Source: Lachnospiraceae bacterium (GTDB lineage Bacteria; Bacillota; Clostridia; Lachnospirales; Lachnospiraceae). From it: a stretch of 57,833 bases of DNA. This document shows, piece by piece, positions 36,060 through 57,753 of the stretch (position 1 is its first letter; every line of letters starts with the position of its first letter). A program made the translations under genes and the position numbers. The notes under the pieces are model-generated. The model worked only from the letters and a program-made list of their open reading frames with translations, made no database searches and had not been told where the DNA came from. The stretch covers positions 1 through 57,833 of the forward strand of contig JAGANL010000020.1 of NCBI GenBank assembly GCA_017624235.1, in the 5' to 3' direction.

Positions 36060-37754
36060 ATGGCAAGGACGGTAGCGATTGGAATACAGGATTTTGGTGA
36101 TTTGATTCGAAAAAAGTACTTTTATATTGATAAAACGGATTTCCTTCGGGAATGGTGGGAAAGCGGAGACAGCGTTACACTGATTACCCGTCCGCGCCGT
36201 TTCGGCAAGACATTGAATATGAGCATGACGGAGTACTTTTTTTCTGTGAATCATGCAGGAGAAGGCAGCCTGTTTGAGGGCCTTTCTATTTGGAACGATG
36301 TAAATTATCGGGAGCTTCAGGGAACTTATCCGGTAATCAGCCTGTCCTTTGCGAATATAAAGGAGAAGGAGTACAAAACCACCCGGAAGAAAATCTGTCA
36401 GTTGATTACCAATTTATATACGGAGCATTCTTTCCTGTTAGACAGTGGTTTGCTGCATGAAGCGGATATTTCCTTTTTCAAACGTGTTTCTGAAAATATG
36501 GATGACAGTGATGCAACTCTGGCTATATATCAGCTATCGAATTATCTTTACCGTTACTATGGGAAAAAGGTTATTATACTTCTGGATGAATACGATACTC
36601 CTATGCAGGAAGCTTTTGTAGACGGATATTGGGAAGAACTGGTTGGTTTCACCAGAAGCCTGTTCAATTCTACCTTTAAGACAAATCCGTGGTTAGAGCG
36701 TGCCATCATGACAGGAATTACAAGGGTTAGTAAAGAGTCAATTTTTTCAGATTTAAATAATCTTGAGGTAGTAACTACTACCTCGGATAAATATGCTGTC
36801 TCTTTTGGATTTACGGAGGAAGAGGTATTTGCCGCATTAGAGGAATGCGGTATGTCACAGGAAAAGGAAAAGGTCAAGGAGTGGTATGACGGCTTTATTT
36901 TTGGGGAGCATGAAGACATCTATAATCCATGGTCTATCTTAAACTTCCTTGATAAGAAAGTATTCAAAACCTACTGGGCCAACACCAGTTCCAATAGTCT
37001 GGTGGGAAAGCTTTTAAGGGAAGGAAACCGTAAGATCAAGGAGCGGTTTGAGGTATTGCTGCGGGGTGAATCAATCCGGTCAGCCATTGATGAACAGATT
37101 GTATACAATCAGCTGGATGGAAATGAGCGGGCGGTGTGGAGTCTGTTGTTAGCCAGCGGCTATTTGAAAGTACTTTCTTATGAAAGCTATCTGGATATTT
37201 CTGAAGGAACACAACCTAAATATGAGCTTGCACTTACGAATCTGGAAGTGAAGCTGATGTTCCAGAATATGATCCATGACTGGTTTACAGAAGCGGAAGC
37301 CGATTACAATGATTTCATACAGGCATTGCTGCTCGGTGACAAAAAAGCAATGAATGGCTATATAAATCGTGTCGCGTTAAGTATGTTCAGCTATTTTGAC
37401 ACAGGAAACAAACCTTCTGAGGAGGAGCCGGAGCGCTTTTATCATGGCTTTGTATTGGGACTAGTCGTGGAACTGAAGGATCGATATGTCATTACCTCGA
37501 ATCGGGAAAGCGGTTTTGGCAGATATGATGTGATGCTGGAGCCAAAAAATCCGAAAGAGGATGATGCGATTATTCTGGAATTTAAAGTGCACGACCCGGA
37601 GGATGAGGAAACGCTCATGGACACTGTACAGGAGGCGCAAAGGCAGATAGAGCAGAAGCAGTATGCGGCGCAGCTTGTGTCACGAGGGATCCCGAGAGAG
37701 CATATCCGCAGTTACGGATTTGCTTTTCAGGGGAAAAAAGTGCTGATAGGGTAA
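36060..37754 (+). CDS. AAA-ATPase-like / PD-(D/E)XK nuclease-like protein
   Basis: The architecture is AAA-ATPase_like (PF09820-type, about residues 5-290) plus a C-terminal PDDEXK_9-type domain (about 440-560). Landmarks are YFYIDKTDFLREWW, TRPRRFGKTLNMSM (P-loop variant with a GKT core), IILLDEYDTPM (Walker B region) and, in the nuclease-like part, GRYDVML...DDAIILEFKV with the D, E and K residues in place. Such proteins occur in many copies per genome in Lachnospiraceae and Bacteroidetes, and their role is unproven; mobile or defence roles have been proposed. The ATG has GGAAGGAGG upstream. A palindromic element follows within 7 bases. Confidence 0.8.
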   Translation: MARTVAIGIQDFGDLIRKKYFYIDKTDFLREWWESGDSVTLITRPRRFGKTLNMSMTEYFFSVNHAGEGSLFEGLSIWNDVNYRELQGTYPVISLSFANIKEKEYKTTRKKICQLITNLYTEHSFLLDSGLLHEADISFFKRVSENMDDSDATLAIYQLSNYLYRYYGKKVIILLDEYDTPMQEAFVDGYWEELVGFTRSLFNSTFKTNPWLERAIMTGITRVSKESIFSDLNNLEVVTTTSDKYAVSFGFTEEEVFAALEECGMSQEKEKVKEWYDGFIFGEHEDIYNPWSILNFLDKKVFKTYWANTSSNSLVGKLLREGNRKIKERFEVLLRGESIRSAIDEQIVYNQLDGNERAVWSLLLASGYLKVLSYESYLDISEGTQPKYELALTNLEVKLMFQNMIHDWFTEAEADYNDFIQALLLGDKKAMNGYINRVALSMFSYFDTGNKPSEEEPERFYHGFVLGLVVELKDRYVITSNRESGFGRYDVMLEPKNPKEDDAIILEFKVHDPEDEETLMDTVQEAQRQIEQKQYAAQLVSRGIPREHIRSYGFAFQGKKVLIG

Positions 37755-38381: not shown

Positions 38382-38387
38382 CTCTGA

Positions 38388-38415
38388 AACCTCTAGTGGA
38401 AACTGGAGGTTTTTT
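38388..38415 (+). terminator. Terminator after the tRNA-Gly pair
   Basis: AACCTCTAG (38388-38396) pairs with CTGGAGGTT (38403-38411, one G-T pair), followed by a T run to 38415. Confidence 0.85.
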
Positions 38416-38424
38416 GTTTATGAA

Positions 38425-38490
38425 CCATCTTATCATTTTGTTGGGACTGTTCAGCATACCAAGGAAGAGATTGAGAGGGTACAATACTAA
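38425..38490 (+). pseudogene. Possible 3' remnant of a deleted gene
   Basis: One frame reads PSYHFVGTVQHTKEEIERVQ then Tyr and stop, which looks like the C-terminal end of an enzyme, with no start or body. A terminator follows at 38522. It may mark what was deleted when the accessory region was acquired. The fragment is too short to be sure. Confidence 0.3.
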
Positions 38491-38521
38491 AATGAAGTTG
38501 TAGTTTAAAAAACATATGAAT

Positions 38522-38552
38522 AATCCCTGGCGCATTGTGCCGGGGATTTTTT
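38522..38552 (+). terminator. Terminator before the defence-like operon
   Basis: AATCCC and GGGGATT arms with inner GGC/GCC pairing are followed by six T. It would insulate the downstream operon from tRNA readthrough. Confidence 0.75.
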
Positions 38553-38608
38553 AGTTAAATATTACAATTATTAGAATCAACAATTAGAGTGCTATTCGTC
38601 AGGTCAAA

Positions 38609-38627
38609 GTACCTTAAAGATGAGTAA
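38609..38627 (+). promoter_or_regulatory. Operator-like site B upstream of the defence-like operon
   Basis: GTACCTTAAAGATGAGTAA lies just upstream of the -35. It matches site C (49572-49590) before the XRE gene in 15 of 19 positions and site A (49624-49642) in 14 of 19. Confidence 0.6.
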
Positions 38628-38633
38628 AATGTG

Positions 38634-38662
38634 TTGACATAAAACTGACAGATATATATAAT
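38634..38662 (+). promoter_or_regulatory. Consensus sigma-A promoter of the defence-like operon
   Basis: TTGACA (38634-38639), a 17-base spacer and TATAAT (38657-38662) form a perfect consensus. Such a strong promoter in front of a likely toxic operon implies tight repression, consistent with the operator-like sites on both sides. Confidence 0.9.
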
Positions 38663-38663
38663 T

Positions 38664-38682
38664 TTAGTCAAATAATGACTAA
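38664..38682 (+). promoter_or_regulatory. Operator-like site D over the start site
   Basis: TTAGTCA-AATAA-TGACTAA is a perfect dyad placed directly after the -10, over the expected start site. It matches site A before the XRE gene in 15 of 19 positions. Sites B and D are centred 55 bases apart. Confidence 0.75.
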
Positions 38683-38702
38683 AATTATGGTGGAGGTAGA
38701 TG

Positions 38703-40697
38703 ATGGGTTACACAATGTTGCAAAACTCGGTGGGTAAGAAAAGATACAGCCAATTTAGTCTTGAAGAAGCTGCGTTGACATTTATTAGAGAGAACTGTGA
38801 AGGCTTACGTTTTGACCAGAGTATGGAATCAAAAGAAAATTTTGAAAAAAGAATTTTCTTAGGAACCAGCTTGAAAGAAAACGAGATTCCATACAATATG
38901 CAGATGGATATAGACAGGCTATGTTTGGAGAATGCTGTTGATAGATTTTTGAAATCCGGAAAAAAGGAGGATGCCTTTGATGTATACTTCTGCTATCTGG
39001 AGATGTTTATTGGCGAATATGAAAAAATAAGGCGAATGATTGAACTGCTTTCCGAGTTTGAGGCGAATGGCAGTAGACTTCTGATGAAGCATCGGGATCA
39101 TTATTCTCACTCTGTATATGTTTTTGTACTTGGTCTTGCTATTTATCAATCGAATTCTATTTATCGGGCCCAATATGATGAATATTATGGGCTGACAGAT
39201 AGTCATGAGGCCGCATATCATTATTTGCAGTATTGGGGACTTACTGCTCTTTTCCATGATATCGGATATCCATTTGAATTACCCTTTGAGCAGGTCATTT
39301 CTTATTTTGAGGTGGGCGGGGATAAAAGAGAAAATGGCCCGTTTGTGGCATATCATGATTTGGGAGTATTTCTTACTCTTGATGATGCGGTAAAAGAATC
39401 CTTGAAAAAGATTTACCCTTCACAGGAATTTTCCACCATAAATGAGGTATTTACATATGCTTTGACAAATAAGCTGGGAACTTGTTATACATATACCAGG
39501 GAGCAGATGCAGAAGGACCTGATTGAGAAACCGACACGGCCTGATAAGTATAATTATTTTATGGATCATGCTTATTTTAGTGCGATCATTTTGTTTCGGA
39601 AGCTTTTTGGTGAAATGGGATGTGAAGTCAGAGCAGAGTATCTTGATGCGCTTACTGCGATTTTGATGCATAACAGTCTATATAAATTCTGTATAGCGCA
39701 TTATAAAAGTGATAATAATATTCCGTTTCAAGCAAAATTGCATCCGTTGGCATATATGCTTATGCTGTGTGACGAACTTCAATGTTGGGATCGTACTTCG
39801 TATGGAAGAAATTCCAAAAAAGAGCTTCATCCAATGGGGTGCAGCTTTGATTTGTCAGGAAATGCCATAAGGGCAACATATCTTTTTGATGAAAAGGAAA
39901 TCGGAAAGATTAACAGATTTAAAGATGATTATATAGAATGGCTGAAAAAGTGTCAGGGGAAAGCACCGGAACTAAAGGCATATTCGGGAATGTATCTGAA
40001 AAATGACGATGGTATTTCGTGCTTTCAGGCAGATATTGAAAGAATCGTCGATCTGAGCAGCATAAAGCTTGGAGTTGGGACGGGCCTGGCTCCGAATATG
40101 CATGTAAAAAATAAAAGCTATTTATCTGACAGTAATTTCATGAATTTATATAACTTTGCCGTGGTTTTAAATGGAAGATGGAATAATGCTGAATGGAAAA
40201 AGGCAAAAATGTCCGGACAGGAAGAAAAATTCCTTGCGGATGAAAAAGTAAAGCGAAATTTCTCGGATTCGTTTAAAAAGCTGTCGCTGGAATATAAGCT
40301 TTCCAATATAAATCAAGCGAAAGCATTTGCACATTATATGAATGCGATTGGGTGTTTCTATACAGATAAGGCTGTTGATTTTGAGATGGTGGAGGGATTT
40401 CAAACAGATGAGCTTGTGAGGATAGGAATTCTGGAACATCAGAGATGGCTGCAGGAACACTATGATATGGGGTGGGAATATGGAACTCCGACAAAAGTAG
40501 ACAGGGATCTTTTGAGACAGCATAAGGACCTGATTCCGGATTTTACAGCAGGCCAGACAGAAGTTTCAGATGAGCAGGCAAAGGCAAACTATGAGCGCCT
40601 GGACAAGGCAGAGCAGGATAAGGATACAGAACCCATGGAGTGTATGCTGGCAATGCTCAGGATGTTTGATGGGTTGAGAATTTACAGATTAAAATAG
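38703..40697 (+). CDS. HD-domain phosphohydrolase-like protein with C-terminal RyR domain
   Basis: First gene of a four-gene operon. An HD-type metal-dependent phosphohydrolase region lies at about residues 125-200, with HRDHYSHSVYVF and LTALFHDIGYP (His185-Asp186). The C-terminus (about 570-664) matches the ryanodine-receptor RyR repeat: LEHQRWLQEHYDMGWEYG followed by LIPDF and a YERLDKAEQDKD-type end. No membrane segment is seen. HD enzymes often cleave nucleotides or cyclic nucleotides, and RyR domains may bind a small ligand, so this could be a signal-degrading or effector protein. The ATG at 38703 is six bases after GGAGG; the ATG at 38700 is also possible. Codon use is AT-rich. I do not recognise the whole protein. 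Confidence 0.75.
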   Translation: MGYTMLQNSVGKKRYSQFSLEEAALTFIRENCEGLRFDQSMESKENFEKRIFLGTSLKENEIPYNMQMDIDRLCLENAVDRFLKSGKKEDAFDVYFCYLEMFIGEYEKIRRMIELLSEFEANGSRLLMKHRDHYSHSVYVFVLGLAIYQSNSIYRAQYDEYYGLTDSHEAAYHYLQYWGLTALFHDIGYPFELPFEQVISYFEVGGDKRENGPFVAYHDLGVFLTLDDAVKESLKKIYPSQEFSTINEVFTYALTNKLGTCYTYTREQMQKDLIEKPTRPDKYNYFMDHAYFSAIILFRKLFGEMGCEVRAEYLDALTAILMHNSLYKFCIAHYKSDNNIPFQAKLHPLAYMLMLCDELQCWDRTSYGRNSKKELHPMGCSFDLSGNAIRATYLFDEKEIGKINRFKDDYIEWLKKCQGKAPELKAYSGMYLKNDDGISCFQADIERIVDLSSIKLGVGTGLAPNMHVKNKSYLSDSNFMNLYNFAVVLNGRWNNAEWKKAKMSGQEEKFLADEKVKRNFSDSFKKLSLEYKLSNINQAKAFAHYMNAIGCFYTDKAVDFEMVEGFQTDELVRIGILEHQRWLQEHYDMGWEYGTPTKVDRDLLRQHKDLIPDFTAGQTEVSDEQAKANYERLDKAEQDKDTEPMECMLAMLRMFDGLRIYRLK

Positions 40698-40706
40698 GAG
40701 CATACT

Positions 40707-42710
40707 ATGAATACAAATGCAAAAGAGGAAAGAAAAAGGGATGCCCAGACAGGTCATATAAAAGAACTGAAGGATAAAGGATATATTTGCGACAGAAAAA
40801 GCAAAAAGGATTATGTTTTTATTAGTTATAGTAGTTTAAATTGGAAAGAAGTATTGCATGACATTGTTTATACAACATGTAAGAAGTACGGACTTCGAGT
40901 GTATTTTGATACTAAATTTGATGAGGGTTCCGATTCTTGGATTACACAATTTATGGATAATATGAAGAGTGATTATTGCAAAGCAGTATTAGCGTTTTTT
41001 AGCCCGGAGTATGATTCCAGTTATGCAACTCTTATGGAGTTAATGGCAAGCCAAAGCACTAAGTGTGGTAATGTGATAGTCTTGCCTGTTATTCTTGGAA
41101 ATTCTGTCGTAGAAAGTATAGATAATACTGGTTTAGGCACATATAGATTTTCCGATAACTCTACAAATGATTTATGGGAAAAAGAAAAGGAACTTTTTGA
41201 TATATTCTTTAATCAGATGGTGGCATTTGGTAAATTCAGTAATATAGAACAAGCTAAGGCACTTTATCATGGATTATCCAAGAATTCTTCGAGTAGCGAA
41301 AAGGCATATTGGGAAGAATTGGAATTTGATGCATTACTTTCTAATGAATCATATTGGAAATCGCTCGGTATTTATACAGAAGAGGAGAAGAAAAAGCATT
41401 GGGAATCACTGGGAGAAGCGGATATAGGGAAAAAGAATGATGTATTTCTTACTAAAAAAGATAATTATCTGTTGATGCATCTGTTGAAAGATAAAATGGA
41501 TAAAAATAATATAGATGGCATTAATATGGATATCCCGGAAGCAATAAAGCAGAAACTGGAAAAGAGCTGTGGATCTGTTTTTGATAAGTTGCTAATTGAA
41601 CCAATGCCTGAATTGTCTGAACCAGTGGTTACAGTATGTAAGGAGTCATTTAAAACACAGGCATCAACAAAGGAAATTATTTCCCTAAAGGATTTTGTAA
41701 AAAAATATAATTCAAAAAGTTTCAAAGGAGCAGCATTAAAGACAATAAAATTAATAGGTAAAGGTGAGTTCGCAAAATATAGCAGCAAACAGGAGTATAA
41801 CTCGGCGTTTCATTTGGTATGGGACTTTGTAAGCCAGATGGTTGCGGAGAGGGGCATTCAATACATTGAAATGGTAAATAACTGTTCGGTAATGGATAAA
41901 AATCCTGTATTTATAACTGGGGATGAGTTGGCGCAGAGAAAAACGGAAGGATTAGAAAGCCGTTATAAGAAACTGGATGTGAATGGATTTGAAGATTATT
42001 ATATGTTGCGGAATTATGATCCATACAATTGGATTGCACTGGTTTTGAAGAAACGTATGACGGAATTGGGACTTCCATTGGAGGAGTTTTGCCTTGAGAT
42101 AGAAATGAGTTCAGATCAAGGCGTAGAAGTATTAAACGAAAATGATGCTAAGCTAAATGATCAACCAGAGGTTATCAGCAAAAATGATAATAGAACCAAT
42201 ATAGGAGGCATTTCCGGTCCGATTGGAATTAAAGGAAATACTCCGGGAACAACGGTAGAGATAGTAGAAGGAAAATACTCTCTGGTTGATTTTCTAAAAG
42301 AGTATAATAACAGAACATTTCAGTCAAAGTCCTGCAAGAGGATCAGCCTTATTGGAGTAGATGAATGTGAGAAATATTCGGCAAAGGGATATGAGACTGC
42401 TCGAAAACTGGTATTTGATTTTGCTATGAAACGTATTGATGAGAGCGGAATGGAATATATTCAAAGAGTAAATGGATATCATGGTGAAAAAGCAACAGTC
42501 AACCCTATTTTTATTACGGTTGAAGAACATAATGAACGTAAGGCAAGAAAAGAAAGTGTCTCCTATACCGTGGTTACGTCCAAGGCAGTGAGCGGTTATA
42601 GTATGTGTACTCATTATTCCGAATATGATTGGTTGAAAAATTCGCTTATAAAGCAGTTGAAAGCATTAGGGCTGCCAGTAGAAAAGTTTTATTTGGTATT
42701 AGAAAATTAA
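40707..42710 (+). CDS. TIR-domain protein with duplicated C-terminal module
   Basis: The N-terminal TIR-like domain (about residues 33-135) begins YVFISYSSLNWKEVL, continues with YGLRVYFDTKFDEGSDSWI, and has SPEYDSSYATLMELM, where the Glu could be the NADase catalytic residue. A middle region (about 150-310) is unrecognised. Two copies of a module of about 145 residues then follow (about 325-470 and 523-667). Each starts SLxDFxKxYNxxxF, contains a (P)xFIT..E...RK segment and ends GLPxExFxLxxE. A Gly/Pro linker with GISGPIGIKGNTPGT separates them. TIR proteins in bacterial immunity deplete NAD or make signals. It is 9 bases after the HD-RyR gene, so co-expressed. Confidence 0.75.
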   Translation: MNTNAKEERKRDAQTGHIKELKDKGYICDRKSKKDYVFISYSSLNWKEVLHDIVYTTCKKYGLRVYFDTKFDEGSDSWITQFMDNMKSDYCKAVLAFFSPEYDSSYATLMELMASQSTKCGNVIVLPVILGNSVVESIDNTGLGTYRFSDNSTNDLWEKEKELFDIFFNQMVAFGKFSNIEQAKALYHGLSKNSSSSEKAYWEELEFDALLSNESYWKSLGIYTEEEKKKHWESLGEADIGKKNDVFLTKKDNYLLMHLLKDKMDKNNIDGINMDIPEAIKQKLEKSCGSVFDKLLIEPMPELSEPVVTVCKESFKTQASTKEIISLKDFVKKYNSKSFKGAALKTIKLIGKGEFAKYSSKQEYNSAFHLVWDFVSQMVAERGIQYIEMVNNCSVMDKNPVFITGDELAQRKTEGLESRYKKLDVNGFEDYYMLRNYDPYNWIALVLKKRMTELGLPLEEFCLEIEMSSDQGVEVLNENDAKLNDQPEVISKNDNRTNIGGISGPIGIKGNTPGTTVEIVEGKYSLVDFLKEYNNRTFQSKSCKRISLIGVDECEKYSAKGYETARKLVFDFAMKRIDESGMEYIQRVNGYHGEKATVNPIFITVEEHNERKARKESVSYTVVTSKAVSGYSMCTHYSEYDWLKNSLIKQLKALGLPVEKFYLVLEN

Positions 42711-42723
42711 GGAAAACAAAGAA

Positions 42724-43947
42724 ATGGTAACATACAAGCAAATCGAAGAATTAATAACTGATTTTAAATTTCAGGAATTAAAAAATCGACAGGAAAAAAC
42801 AAATGTCTTTACGATTGTGGGTCAGACCCATACGGAACATTGGCATAGTTCCTTTATTAGCTGGCTTTTAGATGCACATTCATCATTAAGGCTTGGTTAT
42901 TTCCCTTTGGAACGCCTTTTGATTATGTATATGATGAAAAATCCTGACTGTGGTTTTACATTACGGGATATTTATAGCTGGAATTTAGATGAAGTAAGAT
43001 TTTATACAGAAAAGGATGCCTCATATCAAGGGAAAAAACGTTCCATTGATGTTTATGGAGAAAGCCGGGAACTTATTATAGTAATAGAAAATAAGGTCAA
43101 TGCCAAAGAAAATTATAATAATTCGGAATATGGGCAGACGATGGATTATTGTGAATATGTGGAGATACATAAATCGCCGGAACAAAGAGCATTGTATTTC
43201 TTTATTACAGCGGATCAAAACCAAACAGCTTCCTCAAATAAATATGTTCAAATATCCTATCAGGAAATGTTTGATAATATTATTTCAAAGTGTATCGAAC
43301 ATCCACAGGTATCGCAGGACGGAAAATATTTACTGGAGCAGTATGCAGCAAACCTGAGGGAGACAATTCGCAATTCGAACACTCCGATGGCTTTGGTAAA
43401 TATTAATCTATGCAAAGAGATCTATGATGAGTATGCGGAAATACTGGATGACATATTTATGATGGTAGAAGGAACCATGGATATCAAAAATACGGCAGAG
43501 CCGGGATGTATGGCATATGAGCATTATCAAAGTGTTTTTGATGAGATATATCTGTCTGTGGAAGAAAAATATGGAAAAACCCCAAATGCAAAATTACAAC
43601 GTCAGGTTATGAATTTTACGGATTTGTACAAGCGTGGGGCAGTTAAACCAGGTATGCGCTTTTGCATGAAATACGACGGCGAATTCTATTATGCGCGTAT
43701 AGTATTGTCGGATGACAAGAAGAATTGCTATTTGCAGGTTTTGGATGAAAAGCAAGAACCCTTTGTGGAACCAGGAACAAACAGGGTATTGGGAATTTAT
43801 GAAAATTCTTCTTCGGCAGGTGTCGATGTGATAAATTTGCGCAGGGAAAAGAAAGGTATTTCAGAACGAGTAAAAACTCTCAGGGGAAATACCTATTGGG
43901 TAAATGATGAAGGATTAAGCATTAAGGAACTTATGGATAAATACTGA
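42724..43947 (+). CDS. PD-(D/E)XK nuclease-superfamily protein (PDDEXK_4 type)
   Basis: The N-terminal NVFTIVGQTHTEHWHSSFISWLLD segment is typical of PDDEXK_4 proteins. The active-site pattern is visible as Asp109 in RSIDVYGE and Glu122-x-Lys124 in IVIENKVNAKENYN, with Gln and Tyr in the following helix (EYGQTMDYCEYV). The remaining 250 residues are mixed alpha-beta without a known motif. It is predicted to cleave DNA or RNA and is 407 aa long. It lies 13 bases after the TIR gene, third in the operon. Nuclease activity is inferred from the motif. Confidence 0.78.
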   Translation: MVTYKQIEELITDFKFQELKNRQEKTNVFTIVGQTHTEHWHSSFISWLLDAHSSLRLGYFPLERLLIMYMMKNPDCGFTLRDIYSWNLDEVRFYTEKDASYQGKKRSIDVYGESRELIIVIENKVNAKENYNNSEYGQTMDYCEYVEIHKSPEQRALYFFITADQNQTASSNKYVQISYQEMFDNIISKCIEHPQVSQDGKYLLEQYAANLRETIRNSNTPMALVNINLCKEIYDEYAEILDDIFMMVEGTMDIKNTAEPGCMAYEHYQSVFDEIYLSVEEKYGKTPNAKLQRQVMNFTDLYKRGAVKPGMRFCMKYDGEFYYARIVLSDDKKNCYLQVLDEKQEPFVEPGTNRVLGIYENSSSAGVDVINLRREKKGISERVKTLRGNTYWVNDEGLSIKELMDKY

Positions 43948-43960
43948 GGGGTAAAATCAG

Positions 43961-45322
43961 TTGACGGATAAATGGAAAAAATGGGTTCCTGCGATGAGTA
44001 TCCTGCCGTTCTTTATCGGTGCGACAGGATATGCTTTAGCAGGAGAAAAATTTACAGACTCCTTGTACGCAAGCTTCGCACTTTATTTTGTGAGTCGGGT
44101 GTCTGATCGGTACAATGTCTTGATTGAAATTGCAAGATGGACGGCAGCGCTTGTTACGACGACAATCATTCTTTTTGCTGTAAGGACAATTTGGTTTAAC
44201 ATGGTATGCTGGCTCAAATGCTTATCTGGGGAAAGCGTAGCAGTATACTGTGACTCTGATATCAAAATTTTGTTTGATAAAAAGATTTCATCTATCTATC
44301 CTGGAAGAAAGTTAAAGAAGGCTGCTAAATCTCATATTATAATGCTGAAAACAGATATAGAAAGTTTACAATTTTATCATGAAAATAGGGAGGAACTGAA
44401 AGGAAAATCCGTTTACATAGGTCTGAGAGAAATAGAGTATGGACTGATTAAAGAAAACCCTGAAGTTGTCTTTTATGATATGAATGGAACTATTGCCCGT
44501 GTATTATGGAAAACAATCGGTATATGGAAGTGGAAAAAAACGAATTTTAAGATTGCTGTATATGGAGATAATGTTCTGGCGGAGAATATTTTAAATTACG
44601 GCCTGCTTTTAAATCTGTACTCTGAAAATCAACATATTTCTTATAACTTGATTGCGAATAATTCACACTATAAAGTCAAACATAGGGGAATGGTAACAGG
44701 AAATGGGGATCGATTATCATACTATCAGCCGGATGAAGATGCTGCCTGGGATGTGATAGAGAACGCCGATATTGTGATCATATCGGAGGAACCTTCTGTG
44801 GAATTATTGCAGACTATAGCCGCAGTCTGCCGCAAAGGGAAAATATATTATTATTCACCCACGGCAGAAAATATAGGCAATTATCTGCAATGTGGAAATA
44901 TTAACAGTTTTGGAAGAAATGAAGATATTTTTACAGATGAAAATATCATGCAGGGCAAGCTGATCGACACGGCCCAAAATTGGAATCTGAAGTATGCTGA
45001 AACTTATCATGGTGAGACGGATTGGAATAAATTAAACGGATTTCTTAAGTGGTCGAATATTTCTTCGGCTGATTTTCATGAGGTTGTGAAAGATTTAATC
45101 CAGTTGAATATCAATACGGATATAGAGAGTCTCGCCGAACTGGAGCATATCAGATGGTGTAGATTTTACTATATTAACTATTGGAAATATGGAATTCCGG
45201 ATAATGGGGAAAGAAAGGATGAGAATAAAAGAATTCATATATGCCTGAAAAATTATTCGGAGCTGAGCCAGGAAGACAAAGAAAAAGATCGAGAAATCAT
45301 AAAAAATGTTGGAGATTTATAA
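43961..45322 (+). CDS. Membrane-anchored TrkA-N-like protein with C-terminal RyR domain
   Basis: Two hydrophobic segments lie near the N-terminus (about residues 8-27 and 56-84). Rossmann-like nucleotide-binding segments follow (ESVAVYCDSDIKILFD and FKIAVYGDNVLAENILNYGLLL), in the manner of TrkA-N/CASTOR-type channel gates. The C-terminus (about 390-450) is an RyR domain: LAELEHIRWCRFYYINYWKYG, then LKNYSELSQEDKEKDREIIKN. A membrane effector or sensor responding to a nucleotide-type ligand is a reasonable guess. It uses a TTG start with GAGGGG upstream, 13 bases after the nuclease gene. It is the last gene of the operon. Confidence 0.72.
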   Translation: MTDKWKKWVPAMSILPFFIGATGYALAGEKFTDSLYASFALYFVSRVSDRYNVLIEIARWTAALVTTTIILFAVRTIWFNMVCWLKCLSGESVAVYCDSDIKILFDKKISSIYPGRKLKKAAKSHIIMLKTDIESLQFYHENREELKGKSVYIGLREIEYGLIKENPEVVFYDMNGTIARVLWKTIGIWKWKKTNFKIAVYGDNVLAENILNYGLLLNLYSENQHISYNLIANNSHYKVKHRGMVTGNGDRLSYYQPDEDAAWDVIENADIVIISEEPSVELLQTIAAVCRKGKIYYYSPTAENIGNYLQCGNINSFGRNEDIFTDENIMQGKLIDTAQNWNLKYAETYHGETDWNKLNGFLKWSNISSADFHEVVKDLIQLNINTDIESLAELEHIRWCRFYYINYWKYGIPDNGERKDENKRIHICLKNYSELSQEDKEKDREIIKNVGDL

Positions 45323-45350
45323 AACCTTTTACAGCTTTCCGGGTACTTAA
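45321..45350 (+). promoter_or_regulatory. ECF-type promoter of the lipoprotein gene
   Basis: AAAACC (45321-45326), 16 bases, then GTACTTAA (45343-45350). The same arrangement with the same spacing precedes the ECF sigma gene (47593-47622). The -35 begins within the last codons of the upstream operon. Confidence 0.7.
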
Positions 45351-45386
45351 TATTGAAAAGACTAGAAAATGAGAGGCGGGAAACGA

Positions 45387-45971
45387 ATGAAATTAAGACA
45401 GATTATTGCAGTGACAGGATTGGGGATGGCTATGGCAGGTGTGGTTACTGCATGTGGAACCAGGGAAGAAGCGGTTTCTGTTATGGCGGAGACAGAGGCA
45501 GGAATCAATGCAGTGGAAGAGACTGAGACAGCAGCAGAAAGCGAAACGGAAACATCGACAGATGAAGAGCCGAATTCTGCAATGGACAAGGTTGAGACAG
45601 AGAGCGAGAGTGAATTCGCTTCGCAAGGCGAAGCAGAAACGACTGTGGAAGAAAAGGAAAACACAGGTGCAGAAAATAATGCAAGTGATTTGTCTGGTAT
45701 CAGTCAACCGGTGAATCAGGAACAGACACCGATAGAAAAAGAAATATGTGAGCCGACTACTCCACCCGAAGATTATGGATTCAATGAAGCCCAGAAAGCA
45801 GCAATAGCACAGGCAAAGGCAGAGGCACAGGCGCAGGGCGGTACATATTATGGAAAAGATACAACGGGATGGACTGAATTTGATTGGTTGGTAAATGCTA
45901 CGGCAGACAAGAGCAATCCAAATTGGGGAAAGACAATGGATGATGTACCAACTATTAATCTTTTTCAATGA
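45387..45971 (+). CDS. Small lipoprotein with acidic repeat-rich linker
   Basis: A lipoprotein signal ends in VVTAC (Cys at about residue 23), so the protein should be anchored outside the membrane. A Glu/Thr/Ser-rich low-complexity stretch (about residues 30-115) follows. A small C-terminal segment includes YGFNEAQKAAIAQAKAEAQAQ and TGWTEFDWLVNATADKSNPNWG. I do not recognise a family. The start at 45387 follows GAGGCGGGAAACG. An ECF-like promoter shared with the sigma gene lies just upstream, suggesting membership of that regulon. Confidence 0.65.
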   Translation: MKLRQIIAVTGLGMAMAGVVTACGTREEAVSVMAETEAGINAVEETETAAESETETSTDEEPNSAMDKVETESESEFASQGEAETTVEEKENTGAENNASDLSGISQPVNQEQTPIEKEICEPTTPPEDYGFNEAQKAAIAQAKAEAQAQGGTYYGKDTTGWTEFDWLVNATADKSNPNWGKTMDDVPTINLFQ

Positions 45972-46065
45972 CTAGCAGATGCTCAATGAAATGGTGGCAT
46001 TATTTTTACAAAGAAGAATCCTAAATGATCGAAGTGTTGACATGAAGTAAACGGAGAAAAGAAAA

Positions 46066-46719
46066 ATGAAAACAAAGTTGATGAAATTATTGCTGGCAAC
46101 GGTAGTTAGTGTAATGATGTTTGGAATGCCTGTGATGGCAGAATCAAAATTAATGGGTGACAACATTAGATTTGATTCAGATTATTATGCGCAGCATAAT
46201 CCGGATGCGGTAGCTGCTTTTGGCAGTGATTTTGCATCGCTGTACAAGCATTATGTAATGTATGGAATCGTGGAAGGGCGAACGCCAAACGACTATTATG
46301 ATTCCGAAGACATTTGTGGCATACAGGAATATATCAGTCATTATACAACACCGGGAGCTGTACCGGTAATGTTGCCGAGTGGAAATACGGTGCTTTTCCG
46401 GCAGCATAAGACAGAAGCGGATTTATATCAGGGAGTGGTGTTTATTGATGAAGCAAATCTTGAGCTAATAAAAGAAGTAATAGACACATTTATGTTGGGT
46501 AATTCGGACAAAGACACGGTAGATATTATAATTGTGTATTTACAGTGTTCGGAAGAAGTGAAACCAACGATTATTCCTTTTGCAAATTCAACCATACCGT
46601 ATGGTCAGGCGAATGGATTTAAAAGAACTTCATGGGATACAGATGTAAATTTTGAAAACACGTATTTGGAGTTGTGCTGGGAAAAGAATCCCGAGTACAT
46701 TGATATAAGCAAGTATTAA
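46066..46719 (+). CDS. Secreted protein with FDxDYYA/EGR module
   Basis: A signal peptide (about residues 1-25, ending PVMAE) is followed by one copy of the module: FDSDYYAQHNPDAVAAFGSD, LYKHYVMYGIVEGR. The remaining 140 residues (ICGIQEYISHYTTPGAVPVML onward) look like a separate beta-rich domain unique to this copy. No catalytic motif is seen. It is the first of five proteins in this cluster sharing the module (46-52 kb). The ATG has GGAGAAAAG upstream. Confidence 0.7.
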   Translation: MKTKLMKLLLATVVSVMMFGMPVMAESKLMGDNIRFDSDYYAQHNPDAVAAFGSDFASLYKHYVMYGIVEGRTPNDYYDSEDICGIQEYISHYTTPGAVPVMLPSGNTVLFRQHKTEADLYQGVVFIDEANLELIKEVIDTFMLGNSDKDTVDIIIVYLQCSEEVKPTIIPFANSTIPYGQANGFKRTSWDTDVNFENTYLELCWEKNPEYIDISKY

Positions 46720-46747
46720 TAAACAGTAGGTTGTTCTTGTTACTTAA
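46718..46747 (+). promoter_or_regulatory. Weaker ECF-type promoter candidate
   Basis: TTACTTAATATT (46740-46751) is nearly identical to the -10 region of the two ECF-type promoters nearby, but the -35 is only AATAAA at the matching distance. It may drive the gene at 46819. Confidence 0.35.
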
Positions 46748-46818
46748 TATTATAAAGGGACTGGAAATTATGAATTGCCTAAGCTATAGGTAGAAGTAAA
46801 TTACGAAGGAGACGGGTT

Positions 46819-47469
46819 ATGAGAGAAAGAATTTTAAAAACTTTACTGACAACAGCGGTCTGTGTCATGATGTTTGGTACAACAGCTTTAGCTTATTGCA
46901 AAGAGATGCCGGACGGTTCTTACTTTGATGCAGAATATTATGCAAAAAATAATCCAGATGTGGTGGCTGCTTTTGGTACGGATGAGAACGCTTTGTATCA
47001 GCATTATGTACAGGCAGGAAAAGCGGAGGGGAGATTTGCAACAGAATATGAATATGTTCGAGCAATTTATAACTATTATATGGAAGGGGATAAGTATAAG
47101 GCTTTGGCAATTGAACTTCCGCGAGAATATATGTGTTATCCGGATATTAAAGAGTTCGATGATAGGGGTAAACTGCATGCATATATGGATCAATGCGAAG
47201 TAGATATGATGGCAAAGTATGCCAATGGTACTCTTTTAAGATTACAACCGGGAACTATTTTCAAAACAAAAAGTAATGATAGGTACACGGCTGGATACAC
47301 CATGGTTGCTCTCTATGATGGAGATTGGCGTGGGGACAGATACTATTATGTGTTAAACGATAAGCTGCTAGAGTATATTAATGAAGTTGGAATTGAAGAA
47401 GCAACGCAGGAAGTATGTTCCTTAGGTGTTGTAATAAATACATTATATGATCCTTATATGGACTGGTAA
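46819..47469 (+). CDS. Secreted protein with FDAEYYA/EGR module
   Basis: A signal peptide (to about residue 26, TTALAYC) precedes the module (DGSYFDAEYYAKNNPDVVAAFGTD, LYQHYVQAGKAEGR). The C-terminal part (about residues 85-216) contains KYANGTLLRLQPGTIF, which recalls KLANGTLQRIPVGAII in the proteins at 50445 and 51228. It is therefore a diverged relative of those along its whole length. No enzymatic motif is seen. The ATG follows AGGAGACGGG. Confidence 0.7.
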   Translation: MRERILKTLLTTAVCVMMFGTTALAYCKEMPDGSYFDAEYYAKNNPDVVAAFGTDENALYQHYVQAGKAEGRFATEYEYVRAIYNYYMEGDKYKALAIELPREYMCYPDIKEFDDRGKLHAYMDQCEVDMMAKYANGTLLRLQPGTIFKTKSNDRYTAGYTMVALYDGDWRGDRYYYVLNDKLLEYINEVGIEEATQEVCSLGVVINTLYDPYMDW

Positions 47470-47592
47470 GAAAATATAATCCATATAAGAAAAAGGATTA
47501 ATACTTTAAAGAGACAGGGGATTGGTATAGACATCCGGGAAACTTTAGAGGAAAATAAGAAATGGGAAATTATAAAAAAATCTAATTTTTAT

Positions 47593-47622
47593 AAAACCTT
47601 ACGCCCCTTTCATGGTACTTAG
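47593..47622 (+). promoter_or_regulatory. ECF-type promoter of the sigma factor gene
   Basis: AAAACC (47593-47598), 16 bases, then GTACTTAG (47615-47622). It matches the lipoprotein promoter at 45321 in both boxes and spacing. The -10 is flanked by a perfect 8-bp inverted repeat, CCCCTTTC (47604-47611) and GAAAGGGG (47628-47635), which could be a further control site. Confidence 0.7.
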
Positions 47623-47678
47623 TATTAGAAAGGGGCAGGTAAGGTATTTCCAAATACTTATGAAGAGGAGAAACGGGT

Positions 47679-49130
47679 GTGGAAGATTTAAAAAGAGCTA
47701 TCAAACAGATGCGGAATGGAGAGGAAAAAGGCTTTAACGATGTTTATTCCAAAACCTACAACCGTGTCTATTTCCGGGCAAAGCAGATTATGAAGAATGA
47801 GGAGGATGCGGAGGATTTAACACAGATTGTATTTGTGGAAGCATATAAAAATATTCACACGCTGCAGTCAGTCGAAGCAATCTACAGCTGGCTGGACGGA
47901 ATAACTTACCGACAGGGAATGAAACTTTACAGGAAAAAGAAGGATGTGTTGCTTACCGAGGAAGCACAGATTATGTTTGATGAGCTGGAAAGCAATGATA
48001 TTGATTCTATGCCGGAGCTGACGGCGGATCAGAAGGCAACAGCGGATATCATCAGGGGAATTATTGAAGAACTTCCAGAATTGCAGAAAACAGCGGTGAT
48101 CGCATATTATTTTGACGGGTTAAAAATCGAGCAGATTGCTGACATGATGGAATGTTCGGTCAATACCATCAAGAGCCGTCTGAACTATGCAAGGAAATAT
48201 ATCAAAGACAGGGTAGAGGAAAAGGAGAAAAAGGAAGGCTACCGGATGCATGTATTTGGCTTTCCAGTACTCTGGTTTGCAATCAAATCCATGGCAGATG
48301 GAACGACGCTTACAACACAGGCGGCGCAGACGGTTTACAACGAAGTATGTTCCAACGTTGGGCTGCAGGCAGCGGCAATCGCATCTTCTGCATCAGGCGC
48401 GGCGGCAGCAGGAAAAATAGCCTCCTTAGCAGCAAAAGCAAAAGGCATAGGTGCTAAGTTTGCTTCTCTGAGCATGAAAGTTAAGTCGATAATCGTAGCT
48501 GGCACGCTTGCGGTAGCAGGAACGGTAGGGATGGCAGCATTTGTACATAATCCAGATAAACTAGATTTTGAGTTTACGGTCGAAGCGGTAAAACCGTTAT
48601 TCGGGGAATTGTTTGGTAAGTCGATGTTGGACTGGGATTTTGACGAACTGCATGCGTATCTAAAAAGTAATACGGAGTGTCAGGTCGCAGATCCTGAAAA
48701 AGAATATTGTGAGTGGTTTAGGGGAGATGGTTTTTCTGGACAATATAATCCGGATGAAGATGGACGTGAAGTGATCAGACTTTGGGATGCTGAATATGGA
48801 ATGCTCATTTACAGGGATTCAATCTGCATATTCTTGGATGAATCCTCTAATTTTGAAAACAAAAAAATTTTTGGACCGTATAATTTGGGGGAGGATGTTC
48901 GGATGATGGCAGGCCGGATGCAACAGGGTATATATGATATTCTAATGAAACAGGAATTGTCATCCTTTAATATTAAATTTGCCAATGGTGAGTGTTTTTC
49001 GTCAGGACATATGACAGAGGATGGGCGAGAAGGAATTTATTTTAGTAATGAAGAAGATAAATTTGAATTAGGAATATTTTATGATAGCAATACAAAGAAA
49101 ACAACAGATATATTGTTTTATTATTATTAA
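47679..49130 (+). CDS. ECF sigma factor fused to membrane and extracytoplasmic domain
   Basis: The N-terminus is a sigma-70 region 2 (about residues 10-80; FNDVYSKTYNRVYFRAKQIM, EDAEDLTQIVFVEAYKNI). Region 4 lies at about 115-175 (LPELQKTAVIAYYFDGLKIEQIADMMECSVNTIKSRLNYARKYI). An Ala/Gly/Lys-rich linker (about 215-265) leads to one membrane segment (IIVAGTLAVAGTVGMAAFV, about 268-287). An outside domain of about 195 residues follows, with many aromatic and acidic residues. The C-terminal half may act as a built-in anti-sigma factor or sensor, releasing the sigma part by proteolysis. A GTG start has GAGGAG nine bases upstream. An ECF-like promoter upstream suggests autoregulation. Confidence 0.82.
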   Translation: MEDLKRAIKQMRNGEEKGFNDVYSKTYNRVYFRAKQIMKNEEDAEDLTQIVFVEAYKNIHTLQSVEAIYSWLDGITYRQGMKLYRKKKDVLLTEEAQIMFDELESNDIDSMPELTADQKATADIIRGIIEELPELQKTAVIAYYFDGLKIEQIADMMECSVNTIKSRLNYARKYIKDRVEEKEKKEGYRMHVFGFPVLWFAIKSMADGTTLTTQAAQTVYNEVCSNVGLQAAAIASSASGAAAAGKIASLAAKAKGIGAKFASLSMKVKSIIVAGTLAVAGTVGMAAFVHNPDKLDFEFTVEAVKPLFGELFGKSMLDWDFDELHAYLKSNTECQVADPEKEYCEWFRGDGFSGQYNPDEDGREVIRLWDAEYGMLIYRDSICIFLDESSNFENKKIFGPYNLGEDVRMMAGRMQQGIYDILMKQELSSFNIKFANGECFSSGHMTEDGREGIYFSNEEDKFELGIFYDSNTKKTTDILFYYY

Positions 49131-49217
49131 TGTAGTTTGAGAAAAGAAAGAATATATGTGAAGAAAAAAGTAGCAGGGAGTCAAGAGTGAAGTGAGTGCA
49201 AAAAATTGGAAGCGAGA

Positions 49218-49315
49218 TTGACATACTATGATTCTATATATTGTATATAAATACTGATTTAATGTTTGGAAAATAGATGATTTTACATCTATTTTCCGTG
49301 ATGGTCAGTATGACT
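49218..49315 (+). other. Possible small RNA or terminator hairpin, 3' to the XRE gene
   Basis: TTGACA (49218-49223) and TTGTAT (49241-49246) are 17 bases apart. They are followed by a perfect hairpin, GGAAAATAGATG/CATCTATTTTCC (49268-49279 with 49286-49297), inside a wider ATACTGA/TCAGTAT pair and a run of T. It could encode a small RNA antisense to the 3' end of the XRE gene, or simply terminate transcripts. Confidence 0.3.
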
Positions 49316-49557
49316 TAATTTTTACCCAATAACTTATAAATATCTATATCCAGGACACGGGAGAATACCAGTAATTCATAATCTGTGACAAAGCGCTCCT
49401 GTTTTTCGATGCGGCTGATGACTTTTTGAGATATTTCGACATTATTTAACTGCATCTTGGCGGCAAGTTCATCCTGTGAAAGCTTTAGGCTTTTGCGAGC
49501 TGCTCTGATTTGCGGCCCAACAATATTTGCTTTTCCGTCATAGTTATAGATTTTCAT
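49315..49557 (-). CDS. Small XRE-family repressor
   Basis: An 80-aa Cro/CI-type DNA-binding protein made almost entirely of one HTH domain (IVGPQIRAARKSLKLSQDELAAKMQ, then ISQKVISRIEKQERFVTDYELLVFSRVLDIDIYKLLG). No ligand domain is present. The ATG at 49557 is preferred because GGGGAGG lies seven or so bases upstream; a GTG at 49575 would place that site inside the gene. Two 19-bp operator-like sites upstream match those around the promoter of the operon at 38703, so this protein likely represses both itself and that operon. It is on the opposite strand to its neighbours. Confidence 0.82.
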   Translation of the reverse strand: MKIYNYDGKANIVGPQIRAARKSLKLSQDELAAKMQLNNVEISQKVISRIEKQERFVTDYELLVFSRVLDIDIYKLLGKN

Positions 49558-49571
49558 AAATACCTCCCCGG

Positions 49572-49590
49572 ACACCTTAAAGATAGGTAA
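49572..49590 (-). promoter_or_regulatory. Operator-like site C upstream of the XRE gene
   Basis: ACACCTTAAAGATAGGTAA (plus-strand reading) lies 15 bases before the XRE start codon. It matches site B (38609-38627) in 15 of 19 positions. Confidence 0.6.
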
Positions 49591-49623
49591 TTAATTTTAC
49601 GTTAGCACGTTGTATAGTTATAC

Positions 49624-49642
49624 TTAGTTCAAAGATGACTAA
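49624..49642 (-). promoter_or_regulatory. Operator-like site A upstream of the XRE gene
   Basis: TTAGTTCAAAGATGACTAA (plus-strand reading) matches site D over the defence-like operon's start site in 15 of 19 positions. Sites C and A are centred 52 bases apart, close to the 55-base spacing of B and D. Confidence 0.65.
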
Positions 49643-49725
49643 ATATTAAATTTTATTTTTGAATATGGAGAATTATGCAGGCTTGGCGTTTTCTAAACGC
49701 TTAAAAATAAAAAAGGAGAAGAGTT

Positions 49726-50394
49726 ATGAGACAAAAAGGAGTTAAAGTGTTACTTGCAACAATGGTATGTACCATGATGATTGGTGCAACGGCGTTTGCC
49801 CAGACAAAGACTATGCCGGATGGAACGGTATTCGATGCGGAATATTATGCAGAGCAGAATGACGATGTAAAAGCTGCATATGGAACGGATGAAAATTTAC
49901 TCTATTTGCATTATTCTGTATGGGGAAAAAATGAGGGAAGGCAGCCGGTTGGGGATACCATGGAAAAGACTGCTCCGATAACCGCCGAAGTTCCGGTACA
50001 GGAGAAAAACTGGATTGATCAATTATATTATGATTTGGAGAACAGCCATTATGATGCTGTATTACAGCAGATTCAGTTTCAAACATTTTGGAACAAAGTA
50101 CATCCATATGCTATTCAGGATCGGTCGGTAGTTTTGGAACGTGAAGGAGAAGATTTGCCGGAGTTTGATGAACATGATTTAAAAACAAGCGATGGAAAAA
50201 GCCTGTATGTATTTACTTATGGCGGGATAGGTATGGTGAGATTATATGCGCCGGTATCCGGCAATTATGAGAAGAACCTGCGCGCAGGGGATTATTGGCT
50301 TGAAACCTATTGCTATGATTGGGAGGCTAATCAGTATATGGGTTATTCCTATTGGGACGGAAGCAAAAAGGTGGATGTTACACTGATTGAGTAA
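49726..50394 (+). CDS. Secreted protein with FDAEYYA/EGR module
   Basis: A signal peptide (about residues 1-25, ending ATAFAQ) is followed by the module DGTVFDAEYYAEQNDDVKAAYGTD, LYLHYSVWGKNEGR. The C-terminal region (about residues 85-222) differs from the neighbours and is rich in Tyr, Trp and Asp (LREGEDLPEFDEHDL-like, GNYEKNLRAGDYWLETYCYDW). No enzymatic motif is seen. AAAAAGGAGAAG precedes the start. It begins a three-gene run in the same direction. Confidence 0.7.
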   Translation: MRQKGVKVLLATMVCTMMIGATAFAQTKTMPDGTVFDAEYYAEQNDDVKAAYGTDENLLYLHYSVWGKNEGRQPVGDTMEKTAPITAEVPVQEKNWIDQLYYDLENSHYDAVLQQIQFQTFWNKVHPYAIQDRSVVLEREGEDLPEFDEHDLKTSDGKSLYVFTYGGIGMVRLYAPVSGNYEKNLRAGDYWLETYCYDWEANQYMGYSYWDGSKKVDVTLIE

Positions 50395-50444
50395 GATTAG
50401 GCGGTCGCATAAGCATTTTTAGTAAATTTCAAGGAGAAAAGAGT

Positions 50445-51164
50445 ATGAAAAAGAAACTAATGAAAACAATCCTGTTAACCCTGATCTGTTCTGTATTATG
50501 CGGAACCATGGCTTTTGCCCAGGAGAAGACCATGCCGGACGGAACGGTGTTTGATGCAGAATACTATGCACAGAGCAATCCGGATGTGGTGGCTGCTTTG
50601 GGCACGGATGAGAATCTGCTTTACCAGCATTATGTTGTATATGGGAAGAATGAGGGAAGAAAGGCCACCAATGGAGTAGGAGCTTCTGCTGTTGCACAGA
50701 CAACACAGTCCTTAACGGATGCGAACGGTGTTTATAATGTTCCGAGGGAACAGCAATCCTTCCCGGATAAAAATAAATACCGAGGATTCAATATCACCTA
50801 CAACGGAAAAACCTACACTTGGGGTATAGAAGCGCAGAGTGATTATGAAAAAGATTGTAGAAATGCAGATGCAGCAAAATTGGCGAATGGAACTTTACAG
50901 AGAATTCCGGTTGGAGCGATTATTGATACGGATATCATGTTCTACAGTCTGATGGGATATGAAGGGCAGTATGTCTGCTCCATTGGAGATAAGGACTACT
51001 GTGTGATTACCAGAGACAAGCTTGCAGAGGCTGTTGCAACATTGGGTGTACAGAAGGTAGTATCTGATATGGTAAGGGGTTATACCGATGATATAAATAA
51101 TGACTATCTGGAAAACTCAGGTAACTATCATAAGCCAATTGAAAGTGGAGTGTGTCCATGGTAA
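50445..51164 (+). CDS. Secreted protein with FDAEYYA/EGR module, tandem copy 1
   Basis: A signal peptide (about residues 1-25, ending AFAQ) is followed by the module DGTVFDAEYYAQSNPDVVAALGTD, LYQHYVVYGKNEGR. A domain of about 150 residues follows (ITYNGKTYTWGIEAQ, KLANGTLQRIPVGAIIDTDIMFYSL, SIGDKDYCVITRDKLAEAVATLGVQKVV). It is about 85% identical by eye to the next gene over the full length, so the two arose by recent tandem duplication. Two Cys residues in the mature domain could form a disulfide. Function unknown. Confidence 0.75.
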   Translation: MKKKLMKTILLTLICSVLCGTMAFAQEKTMPDGTVFDAEYYAQSNPDVVAALGTDENLLYQHYVVYGKNEGRKATNGVGASAVAQTTQSLTDANGVYNVPREQQSFPDKNKYRGFNITYNGKTYTWGIEAQSDYEKDCRNADAAKLANGTLQRIPVGAIIDTDIMFYSLMGYEGQYVCSIGDKDYCVITRDKLAEAVATLGVQKVVSDMVRGYTDDINNDYLENSGNYHKPIESGVCPW

Positions 51165-51227
51165 TAGCCTTTATACAATTGGGTAAGATGAGTTTATTTT
51201 CTGAGTGTTTAGATAAAGGAGAGAAAG

Positions 51228-51950: not shown

Positions 51951-51982
51951 TAGCCTTTATACAATTTGGCAGAATGAGTTTA

Positions 51983-52121
51983 GGAAAAACCTACACTTGG
52001 GGTATAGAAGGTAGTATCGGATGTGGTAAGGGGTTATACCGATGATATAAAAAATAATTATCTGGAAAATTCGGGACAATACCATAAACCCATAGGGGAA
52101 GATATACATGAAGATTTCTAA
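51983..52121 (+). pseudogene. Decayed third copy of the tandem secreted protein gene
   Basis: GGAAAAACCTACACTTGGGG matches the middle of the gene at 50445. It jumps, through an internal deletion of about 220 bases, to sequence matching that gene's last 90 bases (VRGYTDDI.NNYLENSG.YHKPI in one frame). The deletion shifts the frame and no start codon remains. The match is closer to copy 1 than to copy 2. Confidence 0.8.
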
Positions 52122-52158
52122 CGGGTAGAGTAGTGTACAAATTGGAACGAAGCAATGT

Positions 52159-52207
52159 AAAAAGGAGCATACCACACGAAGCAGTAATTCGTGTGGTATG
52201 CTCTTTT
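52159..52207. terminator. Strong bidirectional terminator
   Basis: AAAAAGGAGCATACCACACG and its complement ending CTCTTTT form a perfect stem of about 20 bp (52159-52180 with 52188-52207). It closes the accessory cluster and also the convergent SH3 gene. Confidence 0.92.
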
Positions 52208-52251
52208 AGCATGAAAATATCAAAGGACTTTTACCTATTTGGGTTGAGTCA

Positions 52252-53992: not shown

Positions 53993-54105
53993 ATGGTTAT
54001 CCTCCCTTGTTTGCGAGAAGAAGCATGTTCTCGGATTGTAATGGTATTATCAGCCTTATTCTAACAGATTTGGAGGAAAAGTAAAATGTAACTTTGTGTA
54101 CGATA

Positions 54106-54114
54106 TGCTATAAT
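54106..54114 (+). promoter_or_regulatory. Extended -10 promoter for the MATE gene
   Basis: TG-C-TATAAT (54106-54114) is an extended -10 element about 80 bases before the start codon. The -35 (around TGTAAC) is poor, as is usual for this class. Confidence 0.45.
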
Positions 54115-56698: not shown

Positions 56699-56702
56699 CT
56701 CT

Positions 56703-57725: not shown

Positions 57726-57753
57726 GTTTACCTTACCTCTTTTCCTGTAAAAT

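Follow-up and report, generated by a model that had tools for sequence, protein, structure and literature searches.

What does an operon do for its bacterial host when two proteins with ryanodine receptor (RyR) domains stand in it beside a TIR protein and a nuclease-type protein? The question is raised by four genes, g1 to g4, at positions 38700-45322 of contig JAGANL010000020.1 of a gut-type Lachnospiraceae bacterium (assembly GCA_017624235.1), a stretch of 57,833 nucleotides called the window below. They encode an HD-RyR protein (g1), a TIR protein (g2), a PDDEXK_4 protein (g3) and a membrane protein ending in an RyR domain (g4, membrane-RyR; Table 1). The operon is probably a Thoeris-like TIR signalling module, in which a signal made by the TIR protein would be received by RyR domains on a channel-derived membrane protein and on an HD enzyme. 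Among its relatives the genes are combined in a modular fashion, and the set of four is not fixed.

The domain classes named in an earlier, sequence-only reading of this DNA were recovered for three of the proteins by Pfam profiles: TIR_2 in g2 (6.9e-9), PDDEXK_4 in g3 (4.9e-14, 53.1 bits against a cut-off of 22.3) and RyR (PF02026) in g4 (6e-8, 33.3 bits against a cut-off of 27.4). The HD-RyR label of g1 held at the level of its family and not for the single sequence, which gave no Pfam match to either domain. With E values up to 1 allowed, 21 of the 51 family members matched RyR (best 1.4e-17) and 14 matched HD (best 0.0073). Searched against PDB, the g1 profile matched solved RyR domains at 9.3e-14 and, with E allowed up to 10, no HD structure. 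By profile comparison, g1 and g4 aligned with each other in their RyR tails (probability 98.6%, E 7.5e-16). The metal ligands of the HD phosphohydrolase superfamily follow an H...HD...D pattern. Residues H137, H186, D187, H290, H324 and D358 of g1 were invariant in 51/51 family sequences, a set compatible with a metal-binding HD active site. Among five scanned HD relatives of g1, a sub-threshold HD match was obtained in L085 and L088 and none in L086, L090 and L107 (labels of the form L### denote loci).

Candidate active sites were also conserved in the other two enzymes. Residue E111 of g2, which falls where a catalytic glutamate would be expected, was invariant in 20/20 TIR proteins, though column identity averaged 21%. 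The D...ExK motif of g3 (D109, E122, K124) was invariant in 11/11 sequences, and g3 matched the PADLOC profile PDC-S26 at 3.3e-31. This label presumably denotes a single-gene candidate; g3 differs in being an optional member of an operon.

Table 1. Features of the operon and its upstream region, in window coordinates
Feature	Position	Strand	Details
Promoter, sigma-70/A-type, TTGACA-17-TATAAT	38634..38662	+	consensus match 12/12
Inverted repeat over the -10 box, operator-like	38660-38670 / 38676-38686	+	perfect 11 bp, 5-nt loop
g1, HD-RyR protein, 665 aa	38700..40697	+	HD region ~130-360; C-terminal RyR ~575-665
g2, TIR protein, 667 aa	40707..42710	+	TIR ~37-152; candidate catalytic E111
g3, PDDEXK_4 protein, 407 aa, optional operon member	42724..43947	+	PADLOC PDC-S26
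g4, membrane protein, 453 aa, TTG start	43961..45322	+	two-helix head, Rossmann/TrkA-N-like region, RyR ~385-449

Linkage between TIR, RyR and membrane genes was apparent in the 58 loci found with g1, whose gene content was scored with local profiles. Twenty-six of them were close to g1 (L013-L034, L065, L068-L070; 49-70% identity) and 32 formed a second group, in which L036 and L064 were placed although they also reach 49% identity. A TIR gene lay within 5 kb of g1 in 22/26 close loci, against 0.16 expected from per-genome TIR counts (with genome sizes rounded and the TIR count of L029 borrowed from genome G081). The four others comprised two contigs under 5 kb (L024, L031), a locus with a DUF4062-STAND protein (L026) and one with neither (L034). 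A membrane-RyR gene was present in 22/26 close loci, or 23/26 counting an RyR-only match in L029, three of these 23 carrying a long divergent form (L023, L029, L070); it was not found in L013, L034 and L028, the last of these being cut off by the contig end.

That the four genes form one fixed system with every part required, as the sequence-only reading had in mind when it asked for co-occurrence of all four genes, is highly improbable in view of the gene content of the loci. The four genes do occur in order in 8/26 close loci (L014-L020, L068), as such a system would have it; PDDEXK_4 was found in nine of the 26 loci and not in the other 17, and in L022, L024 and L031 g1 adjoins g4 with no TIR gene between. 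Pairs also exist without the remaining genes. TIR/membrane-RyR pairs occurred in L137, L139, L140, L143, L158 and L160, in genomes where g1 was not found. L134 and L135, which come from two genomes of a single genus, are two-gene loci of HD-RyR directly beside TIR, with housekeeping-like flanks that differ between the two; HD-RyR also adjoins TIR on an 8.3-kb contig (L157). In a three-gene operon, L131:6812-12066 (membrane-RyR, TIR, AAA-RyR), an AAA ATPase with an RyR domain occupies the HD-RyR slot. One complete four-gene operon (L020) lies on a contig binned as Gastranaerophilales, in another phylum, through either horizontal transfer or mis-binning.

The second group showed a different membrane partner. 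A SLOG-SLATT-like membrane protein (SLOG plus DUF4231) was present in 11/32 loci, TIR in 14/32 and membrane-RyR in 1/32 (L067, where the gene belongs to another cluster at a distance of 9 kb). In L037, L047 and L057 no open reading frame (ORF) was called for g1. Of ten SLOG-SLATT-like proteins, eight encoded next to g1, all matched DUF4231 (10/10) and seven matched the SLOG family YAcAr (7/10) at E up to 1; in the member shown, these matches fall below the Pfam cut-offs. In the tree of g1 sequences, 23 rows with membrane-RyR were separated from seven rows with SLOG-SLATT by one change (support 100/99); these 30 rows were labelled from the neighbourhood tables and 21 were unlabelled, L034 fell with the second group, and the tree omits L065 and L070, in which g1 is split or shortened. 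In some loci of the second group, sequence comparison thus finds the SLOG-SLATT-like protein where membrane-RyR would otherwise stand, an effector swap at the sequence level. In L132 and L133 the two kinds of membrane gene, membrane-RyR and SLOG-SLATT-like, adjoin each other, and a TIR or DUF4062 gene stands beside the pair. A SLOG-bearing protein, ThsA, is reported to be activated by 2'/3' cyclic ADP-ribose (2'/3'cADPR; PMC11204291, available in part).

A nucleotide pocket in the RyR tails is supported by comparison with RyDEP, a phage RyR-domain protein reported to bind and cleave 2'/3'cADPR (PMC13232231, of which part of the text was available, as throughout). Its ligand residues H75, W78, H100 and D117, confirmed in the gp78 sequence, align with H580, W583, H608 and D642 of g1, kept in 50, 51, 50 and 49 of the 51 family members, and with H396, W399, H426 and D443 of g4, of which the first three occurred in 22, 22 and 22 of 22 relatives and D443 in 19/20 ungapped ones. 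In the same alignment the quartet was incomplete in the distant RyR proteins L083, L084 and L081. That a TIR-made nucleotide signal is sensed by RyR domains, as the sequence-only reading proposed, is supported by this pocket, by the TIR/g1 linkage and by the SLOG-SLATT-like swap.

By sequence comparison, g4 appears to be a K+-channel relative that lacks the selectivity filter. Its TrkA-N-like region, called TrkA-N in the sequence-only reading, gave no TrkA_N match with the single sequence in Pfam; the likeness was drawn from an hhalign alignment of the N-terminal part of g4 with the membrane TrkA_N-RyR family (98.7%, E 4.2e-16, 361 columns), two scanned members of which matched TrkA_N at 1e-14 and 2.6e-12. 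A TVGYG-type selectivity filter is the signature of K+ channels. Among the 43 aligned membrane-RyR rows (L009 and L029 being one contig), a TVGYGD/SVGYGD filter was found in seven, six by pattern and L147 by eye, and was absent from g4 and the other 35. The filter-bearing proteins, with two transmembrane helices (2TM), a Rossmann region and RyR, were found with the g4 profile at E 1e-36 to 2e-44, and Ion_trans_2 matched in 3/3 of those scanned (2.7e-13 to 4.1e-12). The g4 segment DSLYASFALY aligns with their pore helix. These profile matches lie for the most part in the Rossmann-RyR region (positions 164-446), which makes the alignment of the head the less secure part of the channel argument.

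The filter-bearing set itself (L142-L148, e.g. L144:9112-10686) consists of bacterial 2TM K+ channels with an intact TVGYGD/SVGYGD filter, a Rossmann region and a C-terminal RyR domain; L143 and L148 have a second adjoining RyR gene. It is possible that channels of this kind were the ancestors of the filter-less effectors.

These same channels bear on a non-immune role, in which a nucleotide-regulated ion channel and an HD enzyme would serve osmotic or stress control and the TIR protein would be a metabolic NADase, consuming nicotinamide adenine dinucleotide (NAD+). Five of the six assessable loci with an intact filter had no TIR gene within 5 kb, as would suit such a role. Set against this, a TIR or DUF4062 gene lay within 5 kb of 12/16 filter-less members compared with 1/6 filter-bearing ones (Fisher one-sided p = 0.023), and with DUF4062 left out the filter-less count was 11/16 (p = 0.043). 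DUF4062 is described as a TIR-like NADase in the available part of PMC13174449. The comparison drew on membrane-RyR matches, with G187, G089 and G009 judged filter-less by eye from the first 120 residues, G022 (TIR gene 7.4 kb away) scored as without TIR, and G011 (5.2-kb contig), G088 (non-membrane) and the second RyR genes of L143 and L148 left out.

The C-termini of the TIR proteins also speak for recognition. Two tandem copies of an unnamed domain were found in the C-terminus of g2 (~328-470 and ~505-667), two query ranges of g2 matching one place in L027 and in L068. L014 shares this C-terminus with g2 (52% over 325-666), its TIR part being without a tblastn match; in L018 and L019 it is the TIR part that is shared (49% and 42%), and the C-terminus gave no such match. 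The C-terminus is thus exchanged between loci, which fits a recognition region and counts against a metabolic NADase. Distribution was patchy: g1 was found in 5/195 related genomes, its own included, and the g4 profile matched in 19 of the 195. No plasmid matched g1 or g4. Phage records gave a single match to g1, an 'unverified' 8.3-kb faecal contig; viral contigs gave one relative of g1 and none of g4. The HD-RyR gene L156:7896-9941 lies on a contig from a viral collection together with recombinase- and MobA-type relaxase-like ORFs (by eye), which suggests carriage on a mobilisable element. With the TIR association, the swapped C-termini, the patchy distribution and this one copy all pointing elsewhere, the non-immune role is unlikely.

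Several observations weigh against the Thoeris-like module. L013 has HD-RyR, TIR and PDDEXK genes, and membrane-RyR was not found there; by local profile 18/32 second-group loci have no TIR, some of them being short contigs and the profile missing divergent TIRs. Four of the 16 filter-less membrane-RyR proteins (G050, G022, G009, G366) have no TIR-type gene within 5 kb, and L143 is filter-bearing and has TIR; the association of filter loss with TIR is modest and post hoc, tested after the pattern was seen. Because the RyDEP quartet is reported as conserved in animal RyR also (PMC13232231), it argues for a nucleotide pocket and not for a particular ligand. The HD class of g1 and the pore of g4 are both predicted from sequence.

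What HD-RyR itself does is the point on which the Thoeris-like module has a serious competitor. HD-RyR could be an off-switch, its RyR domain capturing the TIR signal and either HD or an RyR glycosidase dyad destroying it in the manner of a ring nuclease, with g4 as sole effector. RyDEP, an RyR protein, has cADPR glycosidase activity (PMC13232231), and g1 retains its H/D dyad; tested RyDEP homologs give the opposite indication: six of eight bound signals, and those other than RyDEP left them uncleaved (PMC13232231). HD-RyR occurs with two different membrane effectors, as would be expected of a shared off-switch; several TIR/membrane-RyR pairs nevertheless stand in genomes where g1 was not found. 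A separate HD fusion likewise couples RyR to a nucleotide enzyme: in L159:9270-12032 (-), HD_4/RelA_SpoT is joined to RyR (RelA_SpoT 3.6e-14, RyR 4.3e-9), next to a TIR-LRR gene at L159:7891-9270 (-), and would represent an alarmone-type enzyme attached to an RyR receptor domain. In the two-gene loci L134 and L135, no effector other than HD-RyR was recognised beside TIR, and these loci fit an effector role at least as well as the signal removal that the sequence-only reading assigned to HD. On account of them HD-RyR is preferred as an effector, by a small margin, and the off-switch is doubtful, though its chances are appreciable.

The Thoeris-like module can be spelled out as follows. The g2 TIR protein would sense an invader through its exchangeable C-terminal region and would convert NAD+ to an ADP-ribose-type messenger, for which the RyR domains of g1 and g4 would be the receptors. 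On g4, the messenger would open a non-selective pore, a K+-channel scaffold without selectivity filter, and the cell would be depolarised. On g1, it would activate the HD phosphohydrolase, which would most likely destroy nucleotides as a second effector. The PDDEXK_4 protein g3 would be an optional extra nuclease arm. A TIR protein can also act alone, by NAD+ depletion. The presumed outcome is protection against phage.

Thoeris systems pair the TIR protein ThsB with an effector, SIR2-SLOG in type I, TM-macro in type II and caspase-like in type IV (PMC12847820, available in part). The present operon resembles them in having a TIR gene with a candidate catalytic Glu beside a receptor-effector gene, nucleotide binding by g1 and g4 being predicted from their pocket; a membrane location and a putative nucleotide pocket at the C-terminus are further traits that g4 has in common with them. 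It differs in its receptor, which is RyR and not SLOG, macro or caspase, in having two RyR proteins, one with HD, and an optional PDDEXK_4, and in the long variable C-terminus of its TIR protein. None of the effector domains of types I, II and IV (SIR2-SLOG, TM-macro, caspase-like) was found in g1, g3 or g4 with Pfam, PADLOC and NCBIfam. RyDEP (PF02026) shares RyR homology and all four ligand residues; it is a stand-alone phage anti-defence protein (PMC13232231), whereas here two proteins of a host operon end in RyR. In 2TM K+ channels with RCK/TrkA-N, the two helices, a pore-helix-like segment and the Rossmann region recur as in g4, which differs by the missing selectivity filter and the added RyR tail. 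Membrane effectors of the SLOG-SLATT type share the place beside HD-RyR in the 11 second-group loci and differ in having another receptor domain than RyR.

In the open-licence literature searched, no paper on a host TIR/RyR system was found; the preprint Yirmiya 2025 (bioRxiv), which deals with TIR-based signalling systems, may describe the same or a similar one. The available text of PMC13232231 describes phage RyR proteins, not host RyR effectors, and the parts available of Schaffer 2020 (PMC7016017), Iyer 2022 (PMC9503650) and PMC8195603 hold nothing on bacterial RyR domains; six terms looked for in PMC13174449 were all absent from it.

The operon has the compact form and the setting first described for it. 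Its four ORFs lie on one strand with intergenic gaps of 9, 13 and 13 bases, each behind a purine-rich stretch resembling a ribosome-binding site (judged by eye); its G+C content is 36.5% compared with 45.1% for the window, and two tRNA-Gly genes lie upstream, at 38145 and 38309. The perfect sigma-A promoter was confirmed. A scan gave 29 promoter-like sites, among which the 12/12 score was unique to it, and shuffled sequence gave a mean of 27.6 sites of any quality; only the perfect match therefore stands out. Two terminator-like hairpins (38386-38413, 38522-38548) separate the promoter from the tRNA genes. As for the operator-like sites of the sequence-only reading, the inverted repeat is real in this DNA. 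It was found upstream of g1 in 0/23 relatives, in a scan that omitted the last 20 bases before g1, and was accordingly rejected as a conserved operator; other palindromes were present there in two of the 23 (L030, L069).

The site was compared with one same-genus genome, G001. The match to the window covers both tRNA-Gly genes and stops at 38389; the next match is the final 37 window bases, at the end of a tRNA-Phe gene, the window stopping inside it. The two tRNA genes are 132 bases apart in G001 and 19.4 kb apart here, window positions 38390-57796 being missing from G001, so that the stretch between tRNA-Gly and tRNA-Phe is variable. Inspection by eye of the ORFs listed between 45300 and 57833 revealed no integrase. 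An AAA-ATPase_like/PDDEXK_9 protein (3.2e-45, 4.6e-18) is encoded at 36060-37754, immediately upstream of the tRNA genes. Downstream of the operon lies an array of small secreted-type proteins (46066-46719, 46819-47469, 49726-51950) with the repeated motif 'YYA..NPDV..A.G.....L..HY...G..EGR', relatives of which also flank HD-RyR in L009/L029.

A further RyR fusion is the TPR-SLOG-RyR protein at L084:1492-3429 (-), with a TRPM-type SLOG (LSDAT_prok 5.9e-5); its contig also carries a membrane-RyR/SLOG-SLATT/TIR cluster, at a distance of about 12 kb. A pairing of cADPR with RyR has been proposed, and also disputed, for animal ryanodine receptors. It is quite possible, if short of probable, that bacteria have an axis from cADPR to an RyR channel, that RyR is a general receptor module in this branch of bacterial immunity and that phage RyDEP proteins are captured host receptors. 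If this is true, TIR-made ADP-ribose-type messengers would gate ion channels through RyR domains, and the RyR module would be attached to pores, HD phosphohydrolases, AAA ATPases, SLOG proteins and RelA/SpoT enzymes. The operon would give RyR a function on the host side; in the literature found, the domain's only tie to TIR signalling is through phage evasion. A channel-type effector whose relatives retain the K+ filter is also proposed by it. It may further serve as a simple bacterial test case for RyR responses to cyclic ADP-ribose; PMC13232231 poses the same question about the ryanodine receptors of animals.

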